Below, piece by piece: positions 19,707-35,623 of a DNA stretch of 64,000 bases. Position numbers and translations under genes: made by a program. The notes beneath the pieces are model-generated. The model made no database searches. It saw only the letters and a list, made by a program, of their open reading frames with translations, and was not told the DNA's origin. This DNA is from Winogradskyella sp. J14-2. Lineage in GTDB: Bacteria > Bacteroidota > Bacteroidia > Flavobacteriales > Flavobacteriaceae. The first letter of the stretch is position 1, and every line of letters begins with the position of its first letter. The DNA is taken from the NCBI RefSeq assembly GCF_001971725.1, contig NZ_CP019388.1, positions 1,178,001 to 1,242,000 of the forward strand, read 5' to 3'.

Positions 19707-19731
19707 TACTGTCTACTGTCTACTGTCTACT
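19707..19731. repeat. Heptamer tandem repeat (TACTGTC)
   Basis: Three full copies of TACTGTC and a partial TACT lie in the gap between the stop of the DUF983 gene and the stop of the convergent FAD oxidoreductase gene, overlapping the latter's stop codon. A second seven-base repeat with a different unit lies in an equivalent position at 48485-48532. Confidence 0.9.
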
Positions 19732-20773
19732 AAGCAAACCTATCGATGTTAATCTCTAAATCTAAAGGCTCGTTATTTTCTATAAAATGGTAAAGCTTAT
19801 CGGCCACATAAGGTGCGATCATAACACCTCTAGTACCCAATCCGTTTAATACGTATAAATTTTGATGTTCAGGATGTCTTCCGACCAAAGGCCTTCTATC
19901 TCTTACCGTTGGACGTATACCTGCTAAGTGTTGAACGACTTCAAAATCACATCTTAAAAACGTCTTAAGTTTAGAAATAAGTTCTTGTTTACCCTCTTCT
20001 GTAGGTTGGTTGGTTTTATCTGCCCAATTATAGGTTGCTCCAACAGCATATAAGTCATTTTCTATAGGAATAATGAAGACCGAAGACTTTACTCCGTAGT
20101 CAATATTAAGTTTTGGTGCTTTAATAATTAAAACTTCACCTTTTGTGCCATTTAAAGGAATTTGATTGAAGTAAGGGTTTTTCTTTACACCAAAACCTTC
20201 TGCAAAAACTATTTGTTGAGTTTCTATATCACCATATATCAGACTATAAGGTAAAACTTGTAGTTTTTCATAGATAAAACTAGATTCATTAAGACTTTTA
20301 ATTTGTTTTAGATAATCCTTGTAAGCGTCTATGAGTGCATTAGTATCTAAGCGACCTGCGTGTAGCACCTCACCAAATCCAAATGGTGCGTCTATAGCGT
20401 CATTATTATTTTTAACTAATTCTGTTGAAAGAAATGGTTCTAGTTTCGGTTTGTCGGAAGCACTAAACCATAGGTTTTGCTCTTCAATTGAAGAAAATCT
20501 TCTAAGAATTCTAAGTTTATAGTCAATTTTTATACTTAAATCTTGTTCAATTTTATTGTAAACAGGCAATGCAATATCTAACTGCTCTTTTGCCTTCCAA
20601 ACCTCTGAAAACCGTTTTAAAATTACAGGGTTATATAAACCTGCAGCCACAATAGATGACTGCTGTGAACCATCATCAAAAACAATAAATGATTTATTGT
20701 TAGTTCGTAGCTGCTCACAAAAGGCGATACTAGCTAAACCACAACCTACTATGATATAATCAACTTGTTTCAC
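19730..20773 (-). CDS. FAD-dependent oxidoreductase (DAO family)
   Basis: The protein has 347 residues from a GTG at 20773. A longer frame to 20836 begins inside the gldN terminator hairpin and adds no recognisable sequence, whereas the GTG reading starts just before the dinucleotide-binding strand (KQVDYIIVGCGLASI). A second conserved block near the end reads GLGTRGVMIAPYVADKL, as in amino-acid oxidase/glycine oxidase-like proteins. PNLYVLNG-type text (HQNLYVLNGLG) precedes it. No membrane segment or signal is seen. The substrate is unknown; amine or amino-acid oxidation is the family's usual chemistry. It is convergent with the DUF983 gene. Confidence 0.85.
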   Translation of the reverse strand: MKQVDYIIVGCGLASIAFCEQLRTNNKSFIVFDDGSQQSSIVAAGLYNPVILKRFSEVWKAKEQLDIALPVYNKIEQDLSIKIDYKLRILRRFSSIEEQNLWFSASDKPKLEPFLSTELVKNNNDAIDAPFGFGEVLHAGRLDTNALIDAYKDYLKQIKSLNESSFIYEKLQVLPYSLIYGDIETQQIVFAEGFGVKKNPYFNQIPLNGTKGEVLIIKAPKLNIDYGVKSSVFIIPIENDLYAVGATYNWADKTNQPTEEGKQELISKLKTFLRCDFEVVQHLAGIRPTVRDRRPLVGRHPEHQNLYVLNGLGTRGVMIAPYVADKLYHFIENNEPLDLEINIDRFA

Positions 20774-20823
20774 ATTTGCGAAATTATCAAAAAGATCCTT
20801 GCCCACGCAGTAATGATAGAAAT

Positions 20824-20854
20824 AAAAAACGCCCACTTAATAAGTGAGCGTTTT
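20824..20854 (-). terminator. Intrinsic terminator of the gldKLMN operon
   Basis: On the minus strand AACGCTCACTT pairs with AAGTGGGCGTT (one mismatch), followed by a U-run (A-run 20824-20829). It lies 20 bases beyond the gldN stop and closes the gliding operon. Confidence 0.87.
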
Positions 20855-20873: not shown

Positions 20874-21782
20874 TTAGTAACTCCACATATCTTGTTCAAA
20901 ATCTCTGATCTTATCTTTGATACGCTCAGATTCTAATAATTGCATTAACGCATTATCTGCAACATACTCCTTAACTTCTCTGTCTCCATAAACATTCTCT
21001 TCCTTATAGATGATTCCGTGGAAACGTCTACTATTGAGTAAGTGGTCGAAAGAAATTGGAGAAGCACTATTATCATTGTTGAATGCTTTAGCTTCGTGTA
21101 AAATATCTCTTACCTCTGGGAAGAATACCCAAAACATAGGAATTGGTGCTTTTTGACTTTCGTCTTCAGAATCTATAAAGTTAACATCTGGTGCTGCTGG
21201 TGCAATACCAAGAATACGATATTTCAACTCTCCTTGACGCTTATCAAAATACCATAGCCCTTTAATTAAATAAGAACTGATATCTGCTGGTTCAATGTTT
21301 CTTTCTATAACATATTCTTCTGGGACTTCGTCTTCGCCTACACCATAGGTATTCATGTATTCAATACCTGCATCTGTTATTTTTCTCATTTTTAGAGCAG
21401 CTTCAATATCCTTAAGCGTACGCTCCTCTGTAAAATAAGAATCACCATAAATCCTGGAAATCATACCACTTTCGATATTTTCCATTAAAACCTTATATAA
21501 AGACTTACGATCATCCCCAAGATTTCCTTCTACAGGGAAGTATAACGGGAAATTTACACGCTCGTCTAGTACAACTTTTTCCCAAATCATTTTTGAGAAT
21601 AAGATGTCTCTATCACCTACATAACCATACTCTAGAGGCTCATCGTTATCTAAAAGCAATTCAGCTTCAGTCTTCATACCTATTTCTTCAGGTATTTTTG
21701 CGTTTAGGATATTAGCCTGAGCTATAGCACTATTTGCAGCTAAAACCATTAATCCAGTATATATAAAGCTTTTAAATTTCAT
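20874..21782 (-). CDS. gldN: GldN, type IX secretion/gliding core protein
   Basis: The protein has 302 residues and a signal peptide (MKFKSFIYTGLMVLAANS, then AIAQ). It is mostly acidic and soluble, with stretches typical of GldN/PorN (DRDILFSKMIWEKVVLDERVN is the region at about 57-77, and FFPEVRDILHEA). In the T9SS, GldN binds the GldK ring in the periplasm next to the outer membrane. It is the last gene of gldK-L-M-N, 60 bases after gldM, and is followed by a strong terminator. Identity rests on gene order and sequence together. Confidence 0.95.
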   Translation of the reverse strand: MKFKSFIYTGLMVLAANSAIAQANILNAKIPEEIGMKTEAELLLDNDEPLEYGYVGDRDILFSKMIWEKVVLDERVNFPLYFPVEGNLGDDRKSLYKVLMENIESGMISRIYGDSYFTEERTLKDIEAALKMRKITDAGIEYMNTYGVGEDEVPEEYVIERNIEPADISSYLIKGLWYFDKRQGELKYRILGIAPAAPDVNFIDSEDESQKAPIPMFWVFFPEVRDILHEAKAFNNDNSASPISFDHLLNSRRFHGIIYKEENVYGDREVKEYVADNALMQLLESERIKDKIRDFEQDMWSY

Positions 21783-21842: not shown

Positions 21843-23429
21843 CTAGTTACTTGTAACTTCAACAATTACTGGTGAAACGTTTTTTAGCCTGTACGTTGTG
21901 TTACCTTGGATTCTTGCCTTAATATCAAAAATTGTAATATTATCGCCTCGTCTCGCTTTTTGAATAGCAGACTTAGCTTGAGCATTCATTTTTGTACCCA
22001 CAACACTAATTGTAGGCTGACCAGGAACTCTCATTTTAAACGAAGTTACCTCGATTGGTAAATCGAATACAAAATCGTCTAATTTTGCAGCAACAGTACC
22101 TATCTCTACATTACGCTTTGGTAACTTTACTACACCTGTTTGCCCTGCTATTACACCTGTTGGCGCAGGAATATCTTTAATTCTAAAGGTTTTTCGATCG
22201 CTTACTTTTGAGCCATCATCTAAAGTACCTGTAACGTTTATAGTTACCTCACTACCAGTTCCCGGATTCATAACATACTTACCTGCACCACTTACTGGTT
22301 TTAATCCTATACCACTAGCTTGTACTTTGTTATCTGCAATACCAGCGAATGAAATAGTCATTGGATTGGCAACTCCACGATAGACAACATTCATCTTATC
22401 TGCAGAAATTGTAGCAGAATTTGGTCTTGGTACGACTACGTACTTTCCACTAAAGTTAATCGGCAATTCTTCACCTTTTTCTAAGAAAGTAAATTGTCCA
22501 TTAATATCATGCTCACCAACGTTACCTACTGTAAATTCTATTCTAGCAGCTCCGGTTGAGTCTATTGCACCTTCTCTGTTCATATCTAAATCAGTATCAC
22601 CAACCTTAAGCTTTGTTGGAGTTACGTTAGCATACTTACCTAAAACTACAGATCCAGTAAACTTTTCACCAGCAAAAAATGCATTCTTATCTGGTATAAC
22701 GATAGCTGTATAGTTTTTTAAAGATGTAGCTTCATCAACTGTATTTCCTAAAAACACATTGTATAAATTTGCTTCAGTTGCTTTGATATCGTTTTGCATT
22801 GCTGTAAGCTTAGTGTAAGAAGCTACAGCTGGAAATCCTTTAAAATTATAATCTAACCAGGTTTGTTTTTTACCGTCATTATTTTGAACGTCTGCAGTAC
22901 TAAAACGACGCTCTAAGTTTTCTTTTGCTGGATTGTAAGCTACATCATCGCCTAACAGCTGCTTAATATCTGCTTTGTACTTATTAATTCTGTCTACGAA
23001 TGCTTGTCCTTCTTTAGTCATACGATCTCCTGTAAACCAATACTCGTCTAAAGCATCGCCTTTGTCCATTTCTTCGGCCGGTAATTCGCCTTCTTCTTTA
23101 AATTTCTCAGCGTAATTTCCCTTATTTAAAATCATTGCCTTTTGGGACTCTAAATAGCTGAAAAACTCGTTGGATATAGAGCTCACTTTCTGAGCATTAT
23201 TGTAAGCCACTCCAAAGTCTTTTGGCTTCTCACTAGCTTGTTTCTCTAAGCCTTTTAAAAGGGTCGTGTTTGATGCAACCGCTAGTTCATTTGCATTTTC
23301 AAATTTTGTATTAAATAAACTGAAAGCAGATAATATCTCTTTACTTGTTGTCATCGCAATCATAGCGATAAACACCAAGTACATTAAGTTAATCATTTTC
23401 TGTCTTGCAGATAATTTTCCTCCTGCCAT
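21843..23429 (-). CDS. gldM: GldM, type IX secretion motor shaft protein
   Basis: The protein has 528 residues. Its N-terminus MAGGKLSARQKMINLMYLVF carries the single membrane helix (about 13-31) that assembles with GldL to form the proton-driven motor. A helical region of about 35-220 is followed by beta-rich domains (about 225-520) that span the periplasm and reach the GldK-GldN ring. The length and the opening sequence are characteristic of GldM/PorM. The gene is 50 bases after gldL and 60 before gldN in the same operon. Confidence 0.97.
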   Translation of the reverse strand: MAGGKLSARQKMINLMYLVFIAMIAMTTSKEILSAFSLFNTKFENANELAVASNTTLLKGLEKQASEKPKDFGVAYNNAQKVSSISNEFFSYLESQKAMILNKGNYAEKFKEEGELPAEEMDKGDALDEYWFTGDRMTKEGQAFVDRINKYKADIKQLLGDDVAYNPAKENLERRFSTADVQNNDGKKQTWLDYNFKGFPAVASYTKLTAMQNDIKATEANLYNVFLGNTVDEATSLKNYTAIVIPDKNAFFAGEKFTGSVVLGKYANVTPTKLKVGDTDLDMNREGAIDSTGAARIEFTVGNVGEHDINGQFTFLEKGEELPINFSGKYVVVPRPNSATISADKMNVVYRGVANPMTISFAGIADNKVQASGIGLKPVSGAGKYVMNPGTGSEVTINVTGTLDDGSKVSDRKTFRIKDIPAPTGVIAGQTGVVKLPKRNVEIGTVAAKLDDFVFDLPIEVTSFKMRVPGQPTISVVGTKMNAQAKSAIQKARRGDNITIFDIKARIQGNTTYRLKNVSPVIVEVTSN

Positions 23430-23479: not shown

Positions 23480-24112
23480 TTAGTTTTTGTTCATTGCAGA
23501 TAGCATTCCGCCATACACACCATTTAATGATGAAAGGTTTGATGCTAAAGAGGCCATTTGCTCTTTTAACTTTTGCGCATTCTCTACAGCTTCTTCATTT
23601 ATTGCAGCTTGACGATTTGCACTTTCCATTTGCACTTTGTACAGACTGTTTAAAGACTCCATTTGAGCTGCTGCTAGAGATAATTCTTCGCCATATTTCT
23701 TTTGCGCTGCAATAGAATCTACTGTTGGGCTAATACCTTTGGCTGCACCTTCAAAGTTTTTAATGCTATTTCCCAAACTTGCCATTAATTCACCATCAAT
23801 TTTAGCTTCTTTTAATAAGTTATCTAATTTTTTTGATAATAATCCTTCAGCATCTTTTGGCTCTTCTTTTTTCTTTTTCCCTAAAGATTGACCACCTGCT
23901 AATTCTGGGTATACTAAAGACCAATCTAAATCAGCTTGTTGTCTTTCAAAAGCTGAGTAAGTAAATACCAAGGCTTCAACAACCATACCAATCGTTAGGA
24001 TTAAAGAGCCGTAAGGCCAGTGCTGGATTTTAAATAATGCTCCAACAATTACAATTGCTGCTCCCAATCCGTAGACCATGTTTGTTACTGTGATTTTACC
24101 TTTCTGTGCCAT
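23480..24112 (-). CDS. gldL: GldL, type IX secretion motor membrane protein
   Basis: The protein has 210 residues. Two membrane helices lie at about 10-28 and 34-55 (GLGAAIVIVGALFKIQHWPYG bridges them), followed by a cytoplasmic helical tail from about 80 to 210. This matches GldL/PorL, which together with GldM forms the rotary motor powering gliding and type IX secretion. A glutamate in the second helix (VVEALVFTYSAF) corresponds to the position thought to carry protons. The gene lies between gldK and gldM with short gaps, typical of the family's order. Confidence 0.97.
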   Translation of the reverse strand: MAQKGKITVTNMVYGLGAAIVIVGALFKIQHWPYGSLILTIGMVVEALVFTYSAFERQQADLDWSLVYPELAGGQSLGKKKKEEPKDAEGLLSKKLDNLLKEAKIDGELMASLGNSIKNFEGAAKGISPTVDSIAAQKKYGEELSLAAAQMESLNSLYKVQMESANRQAAINEEAVENAQKLKEQMASLASNLSSLNGVYGGMLSAMNKN

Positions 24113-24197: not shown

Positions 24198-25550
24198 TTA
24201 GTTCGTCGCTGCATTTTTAGTTACTTCAGTACCCATGTAGTCTTGTACTGTTCTAAAACCGATATAACTTCGAGCTGAGTCCGCATACTCATAATCTCTA
24301 GAACTTACCTGTAAGAAATAAGCAACATCTTTCCAAGATCCACCTCTTACAACCTTACGAGAATTTTGAGGATCATTTACATTTGGATTTATAGTTGACA
24401 TGTATTCGTATGAAGCAGGATCGTAAGAACCATTTACCCACTCTGACACATTGCCCGCCATGTTGTACAAATTAAAGTCATTTGGATCATAAGCATCTGC
24501 TTCTACAGTATATAATGCTTGGTCAGCTGCATAATCACCTCTTAATGGTTTAAAGTTTGCCATAAAGCAACCTCTATCATTTTTAGTGTAAGGTCCACCC
24601 CACGGATATGAAGCTCCTTGTAAACCTCCACGAGCAGCATATTCCCATTCCGCTTCGGATGGTAATCTATAAGAATTTACTGGCTGCTTTCCTTTGCTCT
24701 TTTGATAACTATTATGCTTTAAGGTTCTCCATTGGCAAAATGCTTGGGCTTGTTTCCAAGACACACCTACAACTGGATATCCGTCGTATGCAGAGTGCCA
24801 GAAATAGTCATTATGCATCGGCTCATTGTAAGAATAAGCAAAATCTCTAATCCAAGCTGTAGTATCTGGATACACCTCAACCTCTTCTTGTTCTATTACT
24901 TCAGAGCGTTTAAGGCTTCTATCTTTTGCAGCCTTGGCAATGTCCATATATGTATATTGAAATTTAAACTGTTTTACATCCCAAGTTCTCTGTCCGTTAT
25001 AAGACTCTTCTAATGGCAAATACATACCATCCATAACCTCGGCATATAGCTCATCTGGATATTCATCAGTATCGTAAATCAATTCTACATCATGGTTTAT
25101 CTTTCGTTGTTCGTTACCATAAGTATTTAGCATATAGCTTTCATAGGCATTAAGATTGGCTGGATCTGAATCTAAATATGCAAACTCGCCAATATCTCCA
25201 TTACCTGGTGTTTTACCTTCTAAATCTGCCATTTCAGCAAGTTTAAGCCTCAAAATAGAATCTCTTACCCAAAATACAAATTGTCTGTACTCGCTATTTG
25301 TAATCTCAGTTTCGTCCATGTAAAATGCACGTACAGTAGCAGTTTTTGTAGGAGCATCTTGAACACCGGCAATATCGTCATCTGATTTACCCATTATAAA
25401 AGCCCCTCCAGGAACTAAAGTCATACCATAAGGCTTTTCTGGGTGCCATTTTTTACCACTAACACCTACTAATTGTCCGCGGTCTCCAGAATTACAACTG
25501 GCAACCAAAACCAATACAGTGGTAAGTAAAATAAATCTCTTAATATTCAT
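24198..25550 (-). CDS. gldK: GldK, type IX secretion outer-membrane lipoprotein
   Basis: The protein has 450 residues and a lipoprotein signal (LVASC, cysteine at about 19). Most of it is a formylglycine-generating-enzyme/sulfatase-modifying fold: GMTLVPGGAFIMGKSDD at about 43-59, YRLPSEAEWEYAARGG near 293-308, NMAGNVSEWV, VVRGGSWKD and YIGFR. In GldK the fold is structural rather than enzymatic; with GldN it forms the ring under the outer membrane. It is the first gene of gldK-L-M-N and has its own promoter at 25593-25623. Confidence 0.97.
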   Translation of the reverse strand: MNIKRFILLTTVLVLVASCNSGDRGQLVGVSGKKWHPEKPYGMTLVPGGAFIMGKSDDDIAGVQDAPTKTATVRAFYMDETEITNSEYRQFVFWVRDSILRLKLAEMADLEGKTPGNGDIGEFAYLDSDPANLNAYESYMLNTYGNEQRKINHDVELIYDTDEYPDELYAEVMDGMYLPLEESYNGQRTWDVKQFKFQYTYMDIAKAAKDRSLKRSEVIEQEEVEVYPDTTAWIRDFAYSYNEPMHNDYFWHSAYDGYPVVGVSWKQAQAFCQWRTLKHNSYQKSKGKQPVNSYRLPSEAEWEYAARGGLQGASYPWGGPYTKNDRGCFMANFKPLRGDYAADQALYTVEADAYDPNDFNLYNMAGNVSEWVNGSYDPASYEYMSTINPNVNDPQNSRKVVRGGSWKDVAYFLQVSSRDYEYADSARSYIGFRTVQDYMGTEVTKNAATN

Positions 25551-25592: not shown

Positions 25593-25623
25593 TAAACATA
25601 TTTATATATTTTCTAAAAAACAA
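25593..25623 (-). promoter_or_regulatory. Promoter of gldKLMN
   Basis: On the minus strand TTG (25623-25621) is separated by 20 bases from TATGTTTA (25600-25593), one mismatch from TAnnTTTG. It lies 43 bases before the gldK ATG in a 160-base gap. Confidence 0.6.
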
Positions 25624-25710: not shown

Positions 25711-26877
25711 TTAAAAGCTGTTCTTCCTATAGGCTTTATACCAACGTTCTGGTAGTTCACCCTGAGTAGCAAGCAGATAATCAGCATGCATGCATGGTAA
25801 TAACGTATGCTTTTTTAATTTATTATTAACATCTGGTAAAAAAGGAATTTCTATCCACCAACGCCCTGTTTTTAAACTTTTAAAGAATATGAGTTCATCA
25901 TCTTCTACTAAGACATTATACTTCTGAAACTCTTTTTCATTATTAAAATTATCATCTTTAACCCTACAGTTAACGCCTTCTACAAAATACCAAATCATTT
26001 GCGCAATTAGCATTGAGGAAGATGAGTCGTTTTTGGAGTTGCTGTATTCATAAATACCAAAAGAAGAGACCTTGTTACTTATGCCTGCATAGCGTGTAAT
26101 GGCACAAATTTCCTTTCCAGAAAACCCATTGGGTGAATATTTTAGGTTATCACTTACCTCAGCAGCTCTTATAGACTTTAGATCAATAGAAACTATATGA
26201 GCATCTCTTAATAATGGTTCTACTTTGTGTATATCAGCAGATATTTCGCCTAAACGATACGACTCAAAGTATAACTTCTCCATAAGGTCTATTTCTTCTT
26301 GTGAATTAAAGTAGGTTTGATATCCTATAGTAGAATAGTTAAAGAGGTTATATGGCTCTTCTACAATAATTTTACCAACATAACTATTATTTCTTATAGG
26401 CAGATTTGCATCGCCCAGATCAAAATTGGTATCTACATTAACAACGTTAACCATTGGCATTAAACTATCGTAAGCGCGGTAATTGGCATAAGTTAAGTCT
26501 TGGCTTCCACCGAGTATAATTGGTATGATATTTTTTTCAACTAAAACCGAAATCGCAGTGCGGATGGCATAATAGGTATCTTCTACAGATTCGCCAGGTA
26601 ATATATCTCCCAGGTCTGCAATAGCTGTACTCCAATTTCCGGGAAATAGAGTGTAGAGGGTTTTTCTTATTGAATCGAAATTAATATGCGCTCCTATATA
26701 ATTAACATCGTTTCGATTTTCTAAAACTCCGATGAGGGCTAATTGTACATCGTCTAAATCGGGAATACCATTTTGCTTTGAATGAATTTTGATTTTTTTT
26801 CCGAGCGCTTGCTGCGCTAGTAGTTCTGAGTGAGCTAAAACCGCGTCTGAAACAGGCGTTAAAAAATTAAAATTCAT
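25711..26877 (-). CDS. Ureohydrolase (arginase/formimidoylglutamase) fold protein, probably non-catalytic
   Basis: The 388-residue protein aligns by motif with the arginase superfamily, but the metal site is damaged. The GGDHS motif reads GGSQD (G123-D127), so the histidine is Q126. The DAHxD motif reads DTNFD (D149-D153), so its histidine is N151. The SxDxDxxDP motif reads SIDLKSIR, so the second aspartate is K234. Three of the six usual manganese ligands are thus replaced. D149, D153 and D232 remain. It follows topA after six bases and ends 160 bases before gldK. Automatic annotation would call it arginase or formimidoylglutamase; I think it is a pseudoenzyme with a structural or regulatory role. 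Confidence 0.82.
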   Translation of the reverse strand: MNFNFLTPVSDAVLAHSELLAQQALGKKIKIHSKQNGIPDLDDVQLALIGVLENRNDVNYIGAHINFDSIRKTLYTLFPGNWSTAIADLGDILPGESVEDTYYAIRTAISVLVEKNIIPIILGGSQDLTYANYRAYDSLMPMVNVVNVDTNFDLGDANLPIRNNSYVGKIIVEEPYNLFNYSTIGYQTYFNSQEEIDLMEKLYFESYRLGEISADIHKVEPLLRDAHIVSIDLKSIRAAEVSDNLKYSPNGFSGKEICAITRYAGISNKVSSFGIYEYSNSKNDSSSSMLIAQMIWYFVEGVNCRVKDDNFNNEKEFQKYNVLVEDDELIFFKSLKTGRWWIEIPFLPDVNNKLKKHTLLPCMHADYLLATQGELPERWYKAYRKNSF

Positions 26878-26883
26878 ACAGTA

Positions 26884-29391
26884 TTACTTCTTTTTAGTGG
26901 TCGTTTTTTTCTTTGTGGTTTTTTTGGTTTTCTTTTTTGGCGCATTTTTCTCTAGAATAGCTTTTGCCTCTTCTAAGGTCATATCAGAAACATCTACGGT
27001 CTTAGCTAATTCTACTTTTTGCTTACCTTTTATAACATTGTGTCTTCCCCAACGTGCTTTTTCTACTCTAATGCCTTCCTCTTCCCAAACATGAATAAGT
27101 TTATCTTTTTCTTTTTGGATTTTATCCTCAATCAAAGTTACAATGTCTTGTTCAGATAAATTATCCCAATCGTATTTTTTATTCACATTTATAAACATGT
27201 TGTTCCATTTAATAAATGGACCAAAACGCCCTTTGCCTTTTGTAACTTCTAAACCTTCATACGTGTAGATAGGAGCGTCTGCCTTTTCTTTCTCTTTAAT
27301 ATATACTAGGGCTTCATCTAATTCTACACTTAATGGATCGACTCCCTGAGGTAAGGATACAAACTTTTTACCATATCTTACATATGGACCATAACGGCCG
27401 ACATTAACCTCAACTTCATCGTCTTTATAGTGCCCTAAAGCCTTTGGAAGCTTAAATAAATCCATAGCCTCTTCGTAGGTAATGGTATTAAGCTGCTGAT
27501 CTGGCAATAAGCTTGCAAACTGTGGTTTCTCTTCTTCATCTACTGTACCTATTTGAACCATAGGACCAAATTTACCTAAACGCACACTTACTTGGCGTCC
27601 TGTTTTGGGATCTGTACCAAGAATACGTTCGCCTGTTTCGCGCTCAGCATTTTCCCTAACATCTTCAACCTGAGGATGAAAACCTTTATAAAAATCTTTC
27701 ATCATTGCTTTCCAGTCTTCTTTACCTTCTGCAATGTCATCAAAACTCTCTTCTACTCTTGCTGTAAAATTGTAATCTAAAATACTTTCAAAATGATTTA
27801 CCAAAAAGTCAGTAACAATAAAACCAACATCTGTTGGCACTAATTTACCTTTGTTAGAACCTACTTTTTCTGTAAGCTCCTTTTCTTTAATATTTTGGTC
27901 TGAAAGGACTAATTGTTTGTAGGCTCTTTCATCTCCTTCGTGAGTCCCTTTTTCTATGTAATTTCTATTCTGAATTGTAGAAATTGTTGGTGCGTATGTG
28001 GATGGTCTACCAATACCTAATTCTTCTAATTGCTTAACCAAAGATGCTTCTGTAAATCTTGAAGGAGGTCTGGTAAAACGTTGTGTTGCTGTTATATAGT
28101 TGTTAGCTAATTCCTCGCCTACTTTTAAATCTGGCAAAATACCATCTTGTTCAGCGTCTTCATCATCAGTACCTTCTAGGTATACTTTTAAAAATCCATC
28201 AAAGGTTATGATTTCTCCATTAGCAGAGAATTGCTCACTTACTTTATTAGAACTATTAATTTGAATTTTTAAGTTAGTGCGCTCTAGTTTAGCTTCACTC
28301 ATTTGCGATGCAATGGCACGTTTCCAAATTAAATCGTAAAGTCGTGCTTGATCACGTTCTACATTTACTGAATGGTTAGAAAAATCTGTTGGCCTTATTG
28401 CTTCGTGAGCCTCTTGAGCACCCTTAGATTTTCCTTTGTAATTTCTTGGTTTGCTATATTCAGATCCATAAGCCGATGTAATCTCTTTCTCAGCGCCTTG
28501 TCTTGCCTCATCAGACAGATTAACACTATCTGTTCTCATATAAGTTATAAGACCGGCTTCGTATAAACGCTGTGCATTGCTCATGGTTCTACTTACTGAG
28601 AAGCCCAATTTTCTGGATGCTTCCTGCTGCAAGGTAGATGTTGTAAAAGGTGCAGCTGGTGATTTTTTTGCTGGTTTTTTTTGTAGGTCGGCTACTTGAT
28701 AAGTCGCTGCTTTATTATTATTTAAAAATTCTAAAGCCTCTTCTTCTGAACCAAAATTCTTAGGCAATTTAGCTTTAAATGATTTTCCATCTTCTGATGT
28801 AAACTCTGCATCTACTCTGTAGGATGCTTCAGCATTAAAGTTTTGTATTTCGCGCTCGCGCTCAACGATAAGCCTTACAGATACAGATTGTACTCTACCT
28901 GCAGATAAACCTCCTTTAACTTTTCGCCATAAAACTGGCGACAACTCGTAACCTACAATACGGTCTAAAACACGCCTTGCTTGCTGCGCATCTACTAAGT
29001 TATAATCAATAGCTCTAGGGTTTTCAATAGCTTTATTTATTGCACTTTTTGTAATCTCATGAAAAACAATACGCTTCGTTTTTTCCTTATCTAAATCTAG
29101 TGCTTCTGCCAAATGCCATGCTATGGCTTCTCCTTCTCGATCTTCATCACTTGCTAGCCAAACTGTTTCTGCTTTTTTTGCTAAGGCTTTTAGTTTTTTT
29201 ACAACATCGCGCTTGTCTTTTGAGACCTTGTAGTTCGGTTCAAAATCTCCATCTACATCGACTCCTAGTTCTTTGGACGGTAAATCTGAAATATGCCCAA
29301 AACTTGACTCAACCTTATAATCTTTTCCTAAAAATTTCTCTATTGTTTTTGCCTTTGCAGGTGACTCGACAATGACTAGATTCTTCGACAT
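26884..29391 (-). CDS. topA: DNA topoisomerase I
   Basis: The 835-residue type IA topoisomerase opens with the Toprim domain (NLVIVESPAKAKTIEKFLG, then SFGHISDLP, and EDREGEAIAWH near 80-90). The catalytic tyrosine is Y284 in LITYMRTDS. RPSTYAPTIS lies near residue 455. The C-terminal part carries three topoisomerase C-terminal repeats (GKFGPMVQIG, GRYGPYVRYG and GRFGPFIKW) in place of zinc fingers, and ends in a lysine-rich tail. It relaxes negative supercoils. The start ATG at 29391 follows a promoter-like sequence at 29412-29438. The next gene begins six bases after its stop. Confidence 0.97.
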   Translation of the reverse strand: MSKNLVIVESPAKAKTIEKFLGKDYKVESSFGHISDLPSKELGVDVDGDFEPNYKVSKDKRDVVKKLKALAKKAETVWLASDEDREGEAIAWHLAEALDLDKEKTKRIVFHEITKSAINKAIENPRAIDYNLVDAQQARRVLDRIVGYELSPVLWRKVKGGLSAGRVQSVSVRLIVEREREIQNFNAEASYRVDAEFTSEDGKSFKAKLPKNFGSEEEALEFLNNNKAATYQVADLQKKPAKKSPAAPFTTSTLQQEASRKLGFSVSRTMSNAQRLYEAGLITYMRTDSVNLSDEARQGAEKEITSAYGSEYSKPRNYKGKSKGAQEAHEAIRPTDFSNHSVNVERDQARLYDLIWKRAIASQMSEAKLERTNLKIQINSSNKVSEQFSANGEIITFDGFLKVYLEGTDDEDAEQDGILPDLKVGEELANNYITATQRFTRPPSRFTEASLVKQLEELGIGRPSTYAPTISTIQNRNYIEKGTHEGDERAYKQLVLSDQNIKEKELTEKVGSNKGKLVPTDVGFIVTDFLVNHFESILDYNFTARVEESFDDIAEGKEDWKAMMKDFYKGFHPQVEDVRENAERETGERILGTDPKTGRQVSVRLGKFGPMVQIGTVDEEEKPQFASLLPDQQLNTITYEEAMDLFKLPKALGHYKDDEVEVNVGRYGPYVRYGKKFVSLPQGVDPLSVELDEALVYIKEKEKADAPIYTYEGLEVTKGKGRFGPFIKWNNMFINVNKKYDWDNLSEQDIVTLIEDKIQKEKDKLIHVWEEEGIRVEKARWGRHNVIKGKQKVELAKTVDVSDMTLEEAKAILEKNAPKKKTKKTTKKKTTTKKK

Positions 29392-30179: not shown

Positions 30180-31628
30180 ATGGAGAAAATAATTGATGAA
30201 AATAAACAAGGTGATGCCTTGATTTTAGAACACAAAGATGGCAACACAAAAAAGCTTTTTATTGAAAGTTATGGCTGCCAAATGAATTTTAGCGATAGCG
30301 AAATCGTAGCTTCTATCTTGTCTGAACAAGGATATAATACAACGCAAAACCTCGAGGATGCAGATTTAGTCTTGGTAAACACGTGCTCAATTAGAGACAA
30401 AGCCGAGCAAACTGTTAGAAAACGCCTTAAATATTACGACAGAATTAAGGGCAAAAACCCAAAGATGAAAGTTGGCGTTTTGGGTTGTATGGCTGAGCGT
30501 CTAAAAACAAAATTCTTAGAAGAAGAAAAAATTGTTGATTTGGTGGTTGGGCCTGATGCTTACAAGGATATACCTAATTTACTTAGCGAAGTAGAAGAAG
30601 GTAGAGAAGCCATTAATGTTATTTTATCTAAGGAGGAAACTTATGGAGATATTTCGCCTGTGCGTCTTAACAGTAATGGTGTTAGTGCGTTTGTGTCAAT
30701 TACACGTGGTTGCGATAACATGTGTACATTTTGCGTAGTCCCTTTTACCAGAGGAAGAGAGCGTAGTAGAGACCCTCAAAGCATCATTGAAGAAGTAAAC
30801 GATTTATGGAATAAAGGCTATAAAGAAGTTACGCTTTTAGGACAAAACGTTGATAGCTATTTATGGTACGGAGGTGGACTTAAAAAGGATTTTGAGAAAG
30901 CTTCAGAATTACAAAAAGCTACAGCTGTAAATTTTGCCAATCTTCTTGAACTTTGTGCCAAAGCACAGCCAAAGATGCGTTTTAGATTCTCTACATCTAA
31001 TCCTCAGGATATGACATTAGATGTTATTGAAACTATGGCCAAGTATGAAAACATTTGTAATTACATACACTTACCTGTACAGAGCGGAAGCAACCGTATT
31101 CTTAAAGAAATGAATCGTTTGCACACGCGCGAAGAATATTTTGAACTCATCGATAATATTCGACGCATCATACCAGATGTAGCCATTAGTCAAGATATGA
31201 TTGCTGGTTTCCCAACCGAAACAGAAGAAGATCATCAAGATACTTTAACCTTAATGGACTATGTAAAATACGATTACGGTTTTATGTTTGCGTACTCTGA
31301 GCGTCCTGGCACACTTGCGGGCAGAAAAATGGAAGATGACGTACCTGCTGATGTTAAACAAAGACGCCTTAACGAAATACAAGCCTTACAACGTAGACAT
31401 AGCTTATACAGAACCCAGCAGCATGTTGGTAAAGTAGAAGAAATTCTTATTGAAAAGTCTTCTAAAAAATCAGACCAACACTGGTCTGGTAGAAACAGTC
31501 AGAATATGGTTGCAGTGTTTCCAAAAGAACATTATAAACCTGGTGATTTCGTAATGGTGAAAATTTTAGACTGTACAAGCGCTACACTTATTGGTGAAGC
31601 TGTAGGCTATTCAAAAAACAACTCTTAA
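30180..31628 (+). CDS. miaB: tRNA-2-methylthio-N6-dimethylallyladenosine synthase MiaB
   Basis: The 482-residue radical-SAM methylthiotransferase adds the methylthio group to i6A37 of tRNAs reading UNN codons. The N-terminal UPF0004 domain supplies three auxiliary cluster ligands, C33 (ESYGCQMN), C69 (NTCSIRD) and C103 (LGCMAER). The radical-SAM cluster ligands are C178, C182 and C185 in [15 protein letters not shown] domain closes the protein at about 415-478. The next gene starts 11 bases after its stop. In related flavobacteria miaB sits ahead of the sigma-54 activator found here at 33790; two secreted-protein genes intervene in this genome. Confidence 0.97.
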
Positions 31629-31639
31629 TCAATCTAAAA

Positions 31640-32587
31640 ATGAAGAAAATCTTATTACTATTTTGTGCATTTACCTTAGTAACAGCCTGTGAAAACGAGC
31701 CATTAGATCCTGCCTTCAGTGGAGGTGAAAATAATGGTGGCGGAAATGGCAGCTCTAATGATCTAACATTAAGTAAATACGAATTAGATATTACACTTAA
31801 TACGTCTTTATTTGGATTCCCTTTTGAAACCATAGTAAAAACAGATTACTTCTTAGAAGAAAACTCTTTAGGTTATGGTGAAATCGAAACAACAGCTACA
31901 GTTTTAGGTGAAACACAAACTGTTACAGAAACACAAACTGTTGAAACAAATTCTGACGGACAAGTAATAAGTTTTTTGTCTATAAATAGTTTAGGACAGA
32001 CTACTAATACTACTTCAATAACATATGATGGCAACAATATTTCAAATATTACTTACAATTATTTTGAAGATGATGAAGAGGACTACGAATACAACTTTTC
32101 TTATAATGGTAACACCATAACAAGAACAGAAGTTGGTACTACAATAAGCACTGTTTTTACATTGGATGAGAACAATAGATTTTTCAAAAAAGAGTCTTTT
32201 GACGATGACAACCTTATATTATCAGAAACCGTAACGTTTAATGAAGATGGTAATTGCGCAACTAGTATTACCACAGGCGATAACAATCTAAACATCACAT
32301 ATAGTTACGACAATTTTGAAAATCCGATACCAAACCAGATATATAACCTAGGGAATATGCTTTCTATTTTAAATGACGATTATGAGGATACTTTAGGAGA
32401 TGCTCTATCTCATGATTTCGCTTCTAAAAATTGTATAGCAACAAGCATTAACGGAGAACTTTACAATTTCGATGTAACTTATGACAACTCTAATAGAATA
32501 AGTACAAGAGCCTATGAAATTTCAATAGAAGAAGATGGGGTTTCACTCACGACTGGGTTCAATGAAATTTTTACATACGCTAATTAA
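31640..32587 (+). CDS. Lipoprotein with YD-like beta repeats
   Basis: The 315-residue protein starts with a lipoprotein signal (MKKILLLFCAFTLVTAC, cysteine at 17) and a Gly/Asn-rich spacer. From about 50 onward it consists of short beta repeats with alternating polar turns, such as TNTTSITYDGNNISNITYNY, resembling the YD-like repeat lipoproteins common in Bacteroidota. It is strongly acidic. No catalytic motif is seen. It follows miaB after 11 bases and precedes another secreted protein of similar style, so the two may form a pair. The function is unknown. Confidence 0.75.
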   Translation: MKKILLLFCAFTLVTACENEPLDPAFSGGENNGGGNGSSNDLTLSKYELDITLNTSLFGFPFETIVKTDYFLEENSLGYGEIETTATVLGETQTVTETQTVETNSDGQVISFLSINSLGQTTNTTSITYDGNNISNITYNYFEDDEEDYEYNFSYNGNTITRTEVGTTISTVFTLDENNRFFKKESFDDDNLILSETVTFNEDGNCATSITTGDNNLNITYSYDNFENPIPNQIYNLGNMLSILNDDYEDTLGDALSHDFASKNCIATSINGELYNFDVTYDNSNRISTRAYEISIEEDGVSLTTGFNEIFTYAN

Positions 32588-32611
32588 AATATCATGTTAT
32601 AATAATTGACA

Positions 32612-33688
32612 ATGAAGTCCTTTTGTGCTCTGTTTTTTTTAGTAATTTTTCAAAATATTTCATCTCAAAATTTTGATAAGCTTACCAATCTCAAAATTTA
32701 TGAATCATTAAGTTATGATGAATTCATCATTGATGGAGGAAAAGTTACTTCTAGTTCAAATCTCTCTCATTTTAAAGATAGTTTAAACCCTGAATTAACT
32801 AATCAAACGAATTATAAATACAATAATCACGGAAAAATTTCCCATCTAGAATTTAAAGAGTTTAATATTTATCAAAACACAAAATATGATGCTTCTTTCC
32901 ATTATAAAAAAGACAAGATAAATCTAATAAAACTCTATTATTCTCATCGAGAGAACGAGGAAAGTTATTACAGAATGGATATAGACTATAATAAAAATAG
33001 CATTATTGTTAATATATCTGAATACCCAGATACTACATCAAGAAGAAAAATAAAATTTCAAATTGAGCTAGACCATAAGAAGCAAATTAAACAGATTAAA
33101 AAAACTTATAGTTCAAAACATAGTAATTACGACACTGAAAATGTCTGGATACAAATTTGGAATTTTGAATATAATCTTGGTAATATAAAAACACAAGAAA
33201 GGATAAATTATAGATTTTCAGAAGGGAGTAATAATGTTACTTTTTCTTATGATCAATCAAATTATGAGTATGATAAAAATAAAAATGTATTAAATCATTT
33301 ATTCAACAATAACAAAATTGAGATATTACTCTATAATATTTTGTTTGATGAATTAGCATCTTTCAACGTATTTGGATATAATCTTAATTCATATAATTTA
33401 AATCTCGAAAGATACCCTTATTACTTAAGTCAAAACAACATAGTCAAACATCACTATAACAATAGCTTTAGAAAAGGATTAAACGATTATCTTAATGATG
33501 AAGATTTAGCTTTAATATCAAATTTGTCAACTAAACAACTAATAAATTACAATACAAATTATAATAAAGACAAAAGTGTTGAATCTAAAGAAGTATCTGT
33601 AGAGAATTTCAACTCAACTTCAGATTGGCCTGAAGATTTAGGCTCTTCTAACAATATTATTCGTTATAAGTATGAATACAAAAATTAA
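32612..33688 (+). CDS. Secreted protein of unknown function, Asn/Tyr/Lys-rich
   Basis: The 358-residue protein is read from the ATG at 32612; a TTG six bases upstream is less likely. The signal peptide is MKSFCALFFLVIFQNI followed by SSQ. The mature protein is unusually rich in Asn, Tyr, Lys and Ser and contains repeated strands such as NYKYNNHGKISHLEF and FSYDQSNYEYDKNKN, similar in style to the preceding YD-like lipoprotein. The DNA is more AT-rich than that of the neighbours, with many AAA, AAT and TAT codons. I do not recognise a family. No sorting domain or lipobox is seen. Confidence 0.7.
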   Translation: MKSFCALFFLVIFQNISSQNFDKLTNLKIYESLSYDEFIIDGGKVTSSSNLSHFKDSLNPELTNQTNYKYNNHGKISHLEFKEFNIYQNTKYDASFHYKKDKINLIKLYYSHRENEESYYRMDIDYNKNSIIVNISEYPDTTSRRKIKFQIELDHKKQIKQIKKTYSSKHSNYDTENVWIQIWNFEYNLGNIKTQERINYRFSEGSNNVTFSYDQSNYEYDKNKNVLNHLFNNNKIEILLYNILFDELASFNVFGYNLNSYNLNLERYPYYLSQNNIVKHHYNNSFRKGLNDYLNDEDLALISNLSTKQLINYNTNYNKDKSVESKEVSVENFNSTSDWPEDLGSSNNIIRYKYEYKN

Positions 33689-33789
33689 AACTTACTTAAA
33701 CGCAATAAATTTAAGGTTTAGCAAAAACATTTTAATGAATTTTTTATTTATAAATAACAAAATATTAAATTAAAGGATATAAAAAACTA

Positions 33790-35055
33790 ATGGAATCCAT
33801 ACAAGCCATAAAACAACGCTTCGGCATTATAGGAAACGATCCTAAGCTTAATCGTGCCATAGAAAAAGCAATTCAAGTGGCAGCTACAGATATTTCTGTG
33901 CTTGTCACTGGAGAAAGTGGTGTTGGTAAAGAAAGTATTCCTAAAATTATACATCAACTCTCTCACAGAAAACACGGCAAATACATTGCAGTAAACTGTG
34001 GTGCTATACCAGAAGGTACGATTGACAGTGAGTTGTTTGGTCACGAAAAAGGTGCGTTTACAGGTGCCACACAAACACGTTCTGGTTATTTTGAAGTCGC
34101 TGATGGTGGAACCATCTTTTTAGATGAAGTTGGTGAATTACCATTAACAACCCAAGTACGTTTGCTTCGTGTTTTAGAAAATGGTGAGTTTATTAAAGTA
34201 GGTTCTAGTAAAGTTCAAAAAACCAATGTAAGAATCGTAGCGGCTACAAACGTTAACATGTTTGAAGCCATTAAAAAAGAAAAATTTAGAGAAGACCTTT
34301 ACTATCGTTTAAGCACCATAGAAATTAATCTTCCAGCCTTACGAGAGCGTAAGGAGGACATTCATATTCTTTTTAGAAAATTTGCCAGCGATTTTGCACT
34401 AAAATATAAAATGCCAACTGTGAAGTTAACGGATGATGCCGTAGCATTGCTCTTAAAATACCGTTGGAATGGTAACATTCGTCAATTACGAAATGTTGCT
34501 GAGCAGGTTTCAGTTTTAGAACACAATCGTACTATCGATGCTGTAACACTTCAAAATTATTTACCAAATACAGGAAGCACACTTCCGGCAGTGGTAAACT
34601 CTTCAAAGTCCGACAGCGATTTTAGTAGCGAAAGAGAAATACTTTATAAGGTATTATTCGATATGAAAAGCGATTTGAATGATCTTAAAAAGCTAACCAT
34701 GGAGCTAATGAAATCGGGAAGCGTTTCTGATGTGCAAAAAGATAACGAGCATCTCATCCAAAAAATCTATGGCAACGACACAGATGATGATTTTGAGAAT
34801 GCTATTGAAGATTTAGAAGTGCTATCCATACCCGAACACGCAGAGATTAACGAGCCAGCGTCTACGGATCTTGAGGATAAGTATCATTTTGCCGAAGAGA
34901 TTGAAGAAGAAGAAACCTTATCTTTACAAGATAAGGAATTGGAGCTCATTAAAAAATCTCTGGAGCGCCATAATGGTAAGCGCAAATTGGCTGCTGCCGA
35001 ATTGGGAATAAGCGAGCGTACACTTTATAGAAAAATAAAGCAATACGATCTTTAA
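33790..35055 (+). CDS. Sigma-54-dependent activator without a sensor domain
   Basis: The 421-residue protein begins directly with the AAA+ domain. Walker A is GESGVGKES (41-49), the sigma-54 contact loop is a canonical GAFTGA (88-93), and Walker B is GGTIFLDEVGEL (about 106-117). A variable acidic linker spans about 265-375, with a helix rich in Glu and Lys. A Fis-type helix-turn-helix lies at 385-421 (AAAELGISERTLYRKIKQ). No receiver, PAS or GAF domain is present, so control must be by abundance or a partner protein. It precedes lptE by 64 bases and is followed by the TPR gene, secG and groESL. In related flavobacteria this order recurs (recalled, not checked). Confidence 0.93.
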   Translation: MESIQAIKQRFGIIGNDPKLNRAIEKAIQVAATDISVLVTGESGVGKESIPKIIHQLSHRKHGKYIAVNCGAIPEGTIDSELFGHEKGAFTGATQTRSGYFEVADGGTIFLDEVGELPLTTQVRLLRVLENGEFIKVGSSKVQKTNVRIVAATNVNMFEAIKKEKFREDLYYRLSTIEINLPALRERKEDIHILFRKFASDFALKYKMPTVKLTDDAVALLLKYRWNGNIRQLRNVAEQVSVLEHNRTIDAVTLQNYLPNTGSTLPAVVNSSKSDSDFSSEREILYKVLFDMKSDLNDLKKLTMELMKSGSVSDVQKDNEHLIQKIYGNDTDDDFENAIEDLEVLSIPEHAEINEPASTDLEDKYHFAEEIEEEETLSLQDKELELIKKSLERHNGKRKLAAAELGISERTLYRKIKQYDL

Positions 35056-35119
35056 GAAAAGATTAAGATAACAAAAGCACTATTTAATTAGGTTAAGGCG
35101 TTCAGACAAAAAACACTAC

Positions 35120-35623
35120 ATGAAATTATTTAAATACATAAGCACCTTGTTTCTTATAATATCCCTATTTGGTTGTGGTATATATTCATTTACGGGAGCA
35201 GATACTGGAGACGCAAAGACATTTCAGGTCAACTTTTTTCAGAATAATGCTGAACTTGTTGAGCCAGGTTTAGACATAGACTTCACAAATGCTTTGCAAG
35301 ACTTAATTCAAAATCAAACAAGTCTAAATCTTGTAAATACGGGTGGAGATTTACTATTTGAAGGTGAAATTGTAGAATACAGAATTGCACCAATGACCGC
35401 TACCTCAGATAGTAGAGCAGCCCAAAACCGTTTAACCATTAGTGTCAACGTTCGCTACTTTAATAGCTTAGATTCAGAAAAAGATTTTGAAACACGTTTT
35501 TCTTTTTTTAGAGATTATGGTGCCGACGAACAATTAATAGGTGCATTTAAAGACGAAGTACATGCCTTTATTTTTGAGCGCCTTACACAAGACATTTTTA
35601 ATGCGTCTTTAGCCAATTGGTAA
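35120..35623 (+). CDS. lptE: LPS-assembly lipoprotein LptE
   Basis: The 167-residue lipoprotein has a lipobox LFGC (cysteine at 19) followed by GIYSFTGAD, the opening typical of flavobacterial LptE. A compact alpha-beta domain follows (FQVNFFQNNAELVEPGLD, then LLFEGEIVEYRIAPM, and NVRYFNS). LptE plugs the LptD barrel and helps deliver lipopolysaccharide to the outer leaflet. The gene lies between the sigma-54 activator and a TPR protein, with a three-base gap to the latter. The assignment rests on the N-terminal pattern and gene order; sequence conservation in this family is low. Confidence 0.85.
   Translation: MKLFKYISTLFLIISLFGCGIYSFTGADTGDAKTFQVNFFQNNAELVEPGLDIDFTNALQDLIQNQTSLNLVNTGGDLLFEGEIVEYRIAPMTATSDSRAAQNRLTISVNVRYFNSLDSEKDFETRFSFFRDYGADEQLIGAFKDEVHAFIFERLTQDIFNASLANW

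Follow-up and report, generated by a model that had tools for sequence, protein, structure and literature searches.

A ureohydrolase-fold protein with a degraded metal site, encoded between topA and gldK in Winogradskyella, belongs to a family conserved in most Bacteroidia

What does an arginase-like protein that has lost half of its metal ligands do between a DNA topoisomerase gene and the gliding genes? The question arises in a 64,000-nucleotide (nt) stretch of Winogradskyella sp. J14-2 DNA (NZ_CP019388.1, assembly GCF_001971725.1, positions 1,178,001–1,242,000), referred to here as the window. On its minus strand the order is topA, 6 nt (26878–26883), the gene in question, 160 nt, and then gldK, gldL, gldM and gldN, so that the gene follows topA by six bases and precedes the gliding operon, just as an earlier sequence-only reading had described. 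The product matches the Pfam Arginase model PF00491 (47.5 bits, cut-off 22), which places it in the ureohydrolase superfamily by fold. With moderate confidence we take the product to be a ureohydrolase that has been repurposed without its metal, binds either a small ligand or another protein, and is made together with topoisomerase I (TopA).

Alignment with nine canonical paralogues, all of which read HDHDDD at the six manganese-ligand positions (9/9), places Q126, D149, N151, D153, D232 and K234 at these positions in the window protein. It keeps three of the six ligands instead of the full set of a ureohydrolase enzyme: Q126, N151 and K234 are replacements and D149, D153 and D232 remain, in exact agreement with the sequence-only reading. 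That reading had proposed to score ligand loss among homologues, and the loss proved to be family-wide. We counted ligands in 193 orthologues (80 close relatives and 113 diverse ones) that reach 200 bits or more with a profile made from the window protein's relatives; the nine canonical paralogues score 56–162 bits. L198 (205 bits), which is absent from alignment A1, was included, and the very divergent or partial L201–L203 (117–173 bits; families f66 and f77) were omitted. None of the 193 had five or six canonical ligands; 13 kept four, 155 three, 14 two, eight one and three none. Homologues with intact ligands in the identical gene order, named beforehand as the case that would speak against a pseudoenzyme, were sought and not found.

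Of the 113 diverse orthologues, 80 have Q and 13 have H at position 126, 67 have R or K and three have H at position 151, and 60 have S and six have D at position 234. By this alignment, N151 and K234 of the window protein are the local form of the family's substitutions. According to the accessible text of PMC6988801, H151 and D234 are the ligands of the second metal, so losing both should abolish the binuclear cluster, and the binuclear site of the pseudoenzyme appears to be lost.

Matches to the family occur in 276 of the 295 class genomes sampled and in 115 of 148 genomes of the order. Six of the class matches are weaker than E 1e-20 (G207, G241, G243, G285, G322 and G343) and may be fragments or divergent members; in the order set, the match in G013 is to a canonical paralogue (L157). 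When a 96-sequence profile was run over 392 phylum genomes, matches of family strength were confined to the class; the matches outside it (best 176 bits, profile positions 27–306; the matches listed end by about 320) were rejected as ordinary ureohydrolases. In a maximum-likelihood tree of 60 proteins with several long-branch rows, canonical enzymes and family separate at 100/97 support, a split present in 100% of 200 bootstrap trees. One genome, G030, carries a true HutG (L170, 260.9 bits) alongside its family orthologue.

The ratio of nonsynonymous to synonymous substitution rates (dN/dS) in 25 Winogradskyella-group genomes was 0.047 for the pseudoenzyme, 0.049 for topA and 0.042 for gldK, limited to pairs with dS below 2 because dS is near saturation. 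Purifying selection on the pseudoenzyme is as strict as on its two neighbours. A decaying hutG pseudogene would account for the lost ligands, but selection at the topA/gldK level, class-wide retention and a conserved C-terminal extension leave that explanation next to no probability. The ligand pattern is not one of chance or decay, because no orthologue has all six ligands and dN/dS is 0.047. Since an arginase-like protein without a metal site is strongly conserved across most of the class, its job is probably not arginine breakdown. A near class-wide protein under topA-level selection is also likely to be annotated as an enzyme, in contradiction to its residues.

The AlphaFold2 model of the pseudoenzyme has a predicted local distance difference test score (pLDDT) of 93.5, and its residues 20–306 superpose on the Trypanosoma cruzi formiminoglutamase 2a0m (Z 34.1, 2.3 Å, 278 residues). 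The predicted formimidoylglutamase fold spans about residues 15–306 (Z 32–34); the catalytic domain dominates the Foldseek and VIA lists obtained with the whole model. Residues R71, G90, E220, R224, G251, W296, F331, W340 and C362 are invariant in the family, the last three within the C-terminal extension. Positions conserved specifically in the family lie mostly off the metal-ligand motifs, at about 204–224, 258–265 and 292–305 and in the extension. Folded alone, the extension reached a pLDDT of 74.7, and a PDB search with this model gave no match below E 0.001, which at that pLDDT is no sign of a new fold.

Comparison with known systems places the protein closest to formimidoylglutamase in predicted shape and apart from it in metal ligands. 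It shares the fold of HutG (TIGR01227; Bacillus subtilis 3m1r, T. cruzi 2a0m/4mxr), and TIGR01227 is its best-scoring equivalog model, but at 59.3 bits it stays far under the 229-bit cut-off; unlike HutG, it has three of six ligands replaced and carries an extension of about 80 residues that the solved relatives listed do not cover. The agmatinase SpeB model TIGR01230 gave 17.9 bits (cut-off 174), and the protein reached none of the NCBIfam enzyme models. The earlier proposal that it does not serve formimidoylglutamate breakdown is in keeping with these scores.

A Trypanosoma brucei arginase-like protein reportedly lacks a binuclear manganese cluster, going by the title of a 2015 study by Hai et al. 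Judged from PDB titles, its R151 and S226 (4rhi, 4rhk, 4rhm) resemble R/K151 and S234 of the family at presumably equivalent positions, but that protein is eukaryotic. In the accessible text of PMC11271267, MetCb is the metal-free subunit of the metformin hydrolase MetCaCb, has lost five of six ligands and acts as a binder. Like MetCb, the window protein is a ureohydrolase-family pseudoenzyme. MetCb pairs with an active sister, MetCa, whereas no ureohydrolase lies near the window gene: the J14-2 genome holds two more (L001 and L002, all six ligands intact in both) at C1:1460475 and C1:578686, more than 250 kb from the pseudoenzyme at C1:1203714. L001 is an agmatinase (236 bits, above the cut-off) and adjoins a decarboxylase-like gene. 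As far as the accessible text of the published cases goes, they concern single lineages, whereas here the ureohydrolase fold is retained class-wide despite loss of the metal site. Searches of open-access titles and abstract openings turned up nothing describing the family or the order topA–gene–gldK.

How far this gene order is conserved was surveyed in 83 family loci, a non-random set picked to spread over taxonomic families. topA lies directly upstream in 49 of the 83, and 47 have gldK on the same strand no more than 3 kb downstream, in most of which a PorP/SprF family gene stands between pseudoenzyme and gldK (two members of that cluster were tested); this gene is absent in the window. Of 73 loci flanked by 2.5 kb or more on each side, 40 have both topA and gldK, three topA only, three gldK only and 27 neither. 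The closest named relatives of the protein are from Winogradskyella, and of 80 close named relatives 78 show the order topA–gene–gldK; the remaining two are short contigs on which the gene is the last feature. The synteny asked about in the earlier reading is conserved among close relatives and, with porP allowed in between, in 40 of the 73 loci; in the 27 with neither neighbour it does not hold. Where topA and gldK are both missing, a gene for an HpnA-like epimerase dependent on nicotinamide adenine dinucleotide often adjoins the pseudoenzyme (11 loci; one member tested). An HpnA-like epimerase gene was seen beside the pseudoenzyme on the opposite strand, with topA and gldK absent, in L137, L175, L177, L180, L184, L186, L191–L194, L198, L214 and L216.

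Spacing sets the two neighbours apart. From the topA stop to the gene start the median distance is 6 nt, and it is at most 20 nt in 122 of 157 loci; the gap from pseudoenzyme to gldK has a median of 159 nt over 97 direct-neighbour loci. The window contains a promoter-like site in the latter gap. A relaxed form of it, TTG-N17-22-TAnnTTT[AG] within 200 nt before gldK, was found in 91 of these 97 mutually related loci against 5.3 expected from shuffles, with a pattern picked after the window had been read. Gap sizes and the promoter-like site favour topA and the pseudoenzyme gene as one putative unit and gldKLMN as another, and suggest co-transcription with topA.

Such an arrangement could mean that the protein is a regulator coupled to TopA, co-made with the topoisomerase and either modulating it or signalling a metabolite to the machinery of supercoiling. 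No other neighbour is as tightly linked as topA, and G205 (95% complete, 130 contigs) retains topA and the gene side by side in an assembly where SprA and GldM were not found. We nevertheless consider direct coupling to TopA quite unlikely: topA has a housekeeping function, and plain inheritance may account for the neighbourhood; the family is acidic (median isoelectric point 5.25) and no obvious nucleic-acid binder; and the adjacency is missing in 34 of the 83 loci, some of them cut by contig ends.

Alternatively, the protein could be a cytoplasmic accessory of gliding and the type IX secretion system (T9SS) that helps to assemble, stabilize or regulate the GldKLMN motor. This would explain the place of the gene before (porP-)gldKLMN, and linkage to gldKLMN is conserved in 47 of 83 family loci and in the 78 of 80 close relatives. 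Across 295 class genomes, 273 have the gene and SprA, 13 SprA only, three the gene only and six neither (Fisher p 2.3e-6, uncorrected for descent); the association stems from few lineages, leaning on reduced genomes and family f47. Absence in assemblies below 90% completeness was not used. Six of the 13 SprA-only genomes are below 90% complete or belong to the divergent family f66, and one, G312, was set aside because the stretch beside its gldL is partly masked. Clear exceptions are six well-assembled genomes (G164, G251, G340, G366, G382 and G428) with SprA, GldM and a porP-gldK cluster in which the profile found no family match. Within the order set, SprA occurs without the gene in three f9 genomes, G012, G061 and G112.

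The reverse case is G395 (99% complete), which has the gene at 505 bits but neither SprA nor GldM, and whose strongest GldK match (4.5e-27) is at paralogue level; G205 is a weaker exception. G186, on one contig, has GldK and GldM matches and no SprA match, and was not counted as free of T9SS because of the former two. G186 and G395 share genus g102 (family f55), in which the T9SS may be under loss. With exceptions in both directions, strict dependence on the T9SS, followed through GldK, SprA and GldM, was rejected: the gene is neither required for the T9SS everywhere nor lost with it everywhere. The dedicated gliding or T9SS role suggested from the sequence alone fares poorly, the spacing and the separate promoter-like site at gldK siding with topA. 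We regard a T9SS role as possible yet unlikely.

The reading we prefer, a metal-free ureohydrolase turned binder and made with TopA, would run as follows. The family would have a single origin, at the base of the class, in a formimidoylglutamase-like ureohydrolase; replacement of H151 and D234 would have cost it the second metal site, and the conserved C-terminal extension would have been gained. Expressed from the topA transcription unit and probably located in the cytoplasm, the protein would bind through the extension and the family-specific helices, often with a basic residue at the would-be metal position. Judging by its ligand positions, it probably has no hydrolase activity. As MetCb works as a metal-free binder and the H151/D234 ligands are lost, a metal-free binding protein is favoured.

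Several points weigh against this reading. Binding is proposed as what would remain once metal chemistry is removed, and we found no partner, ligand or phenotype of the pseudoenzyme. The link to topA is not universal, given the 27 of 73 loci without topA or gldK adjacent. The choice of the relaxed promoter pattern was post hoc, and its strict form (TTTG) occurred in two of 97 loci against 1.2 expected. Finally, D149, D153 and D232 are all kept in 89 of the 113 diverse orthologues, and in these the first site might still hold one metal ion.

This last count bears on whether the protein is still an enzyme, working either with one metal ion held by Q126, D149, D153 and D232 or through a new active site that needs no metal and includes the invariant C362, E220 and R224. 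Several invariant residues are of catalytic type. The accessible text of PMC6988801 gives Cys at position 126 in the active Zymomonas mobilis arginase, variation at 126 alone being tolerated, and PDB titles of a solved N114H variant imply that wild-type T. cruzi formiminoglutamase has Asn at a presumably equivalent position. But the second-metal ligands H151 and D234 are replaced in nearly all members, and the T. brucei protein, with comparable substitutions, is by its titles without a binuclear manganese cluster. Moreover, all three aspartates are lost in eight of the 113 (L151–L154, L156, L163, L190 and L194), single positions being alignment-dependent in such divergent rows, so the function of the family hardly rests on metal there. 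We hold residual enzyme activity to be improbable. In L151–L154 (family f5) the ligand string is NSISND or NSVSND and gldK is not adjacent.

A more far-reaching version of the binding role, which we put forward as a speculation with little chance of being right, starts from an ancestral pseudo-ureohydrolase that is nearly universal in Bacteroidia, has a C-terminal domain of its own and is made with topoisomerase I. By sensing an amino-acid or guanidino metabolite, or by binding TopA, it would couple the expression of envelope-motor genes to nutrient state or supercoiling.

Table 1. Positions of the pseudoenzyme gene, its sequence features and its neighbours in the window.
Feature	Position	Strand	Remarks
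Ureohydrolase-fold pseudoenzyme gene	25711..26877	minus	388 aa, ATG start at 26877
Codon Q126 (canonical His ligand)	26500..26502	minus	alignment
D149-T-N151-F-D153, remnant of D-x-H-x-D motif; N151 in place of His ligand	26419..26433	minus	alignment
D232-L-K234, remnant of D-x-D motif; K234 in place of Asp ligand	26176..26184	minus	alignment
C-terminal extension, residues 307-388 (~80 residues), family-specific	25714..25959	minus	invariant F331, W340, C362
Promoter-like site TTG-N20-TATGTTTA	25593..25623	minus	73 nt before gldK ATG
topA (type I DNA topoisomerase), upstream gene of the probable transcription unit	26884..29391	minus	
gldK, T9SS ring lipoprotein, neighbour	24198..25550	minus	TIGR03525 595 bits, cut-off 350
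gldL	23480-24112	minus	
gldM	21843-23429	minus	
gldN	20874-21782	minus	

A gene for a flavin adenine dinucleotide-dependent oxidoreductase (DAO) lies 37 nt downstream of gldN (window 19730–20836). In L185 a gene of cluster 15, which is similar to the DAO cluster, immediately follows the pseudoenzyme, and in L162 such a gene comes after gldN. On the other side, a wider neighbourhood is kept in the window (30180–35623) and in many diverse loci: a gene that we take to be miaB-like is oriented divergently to topA, and beyond it come a sigma-54-type regulator and a gene that we take to be LptE-like.
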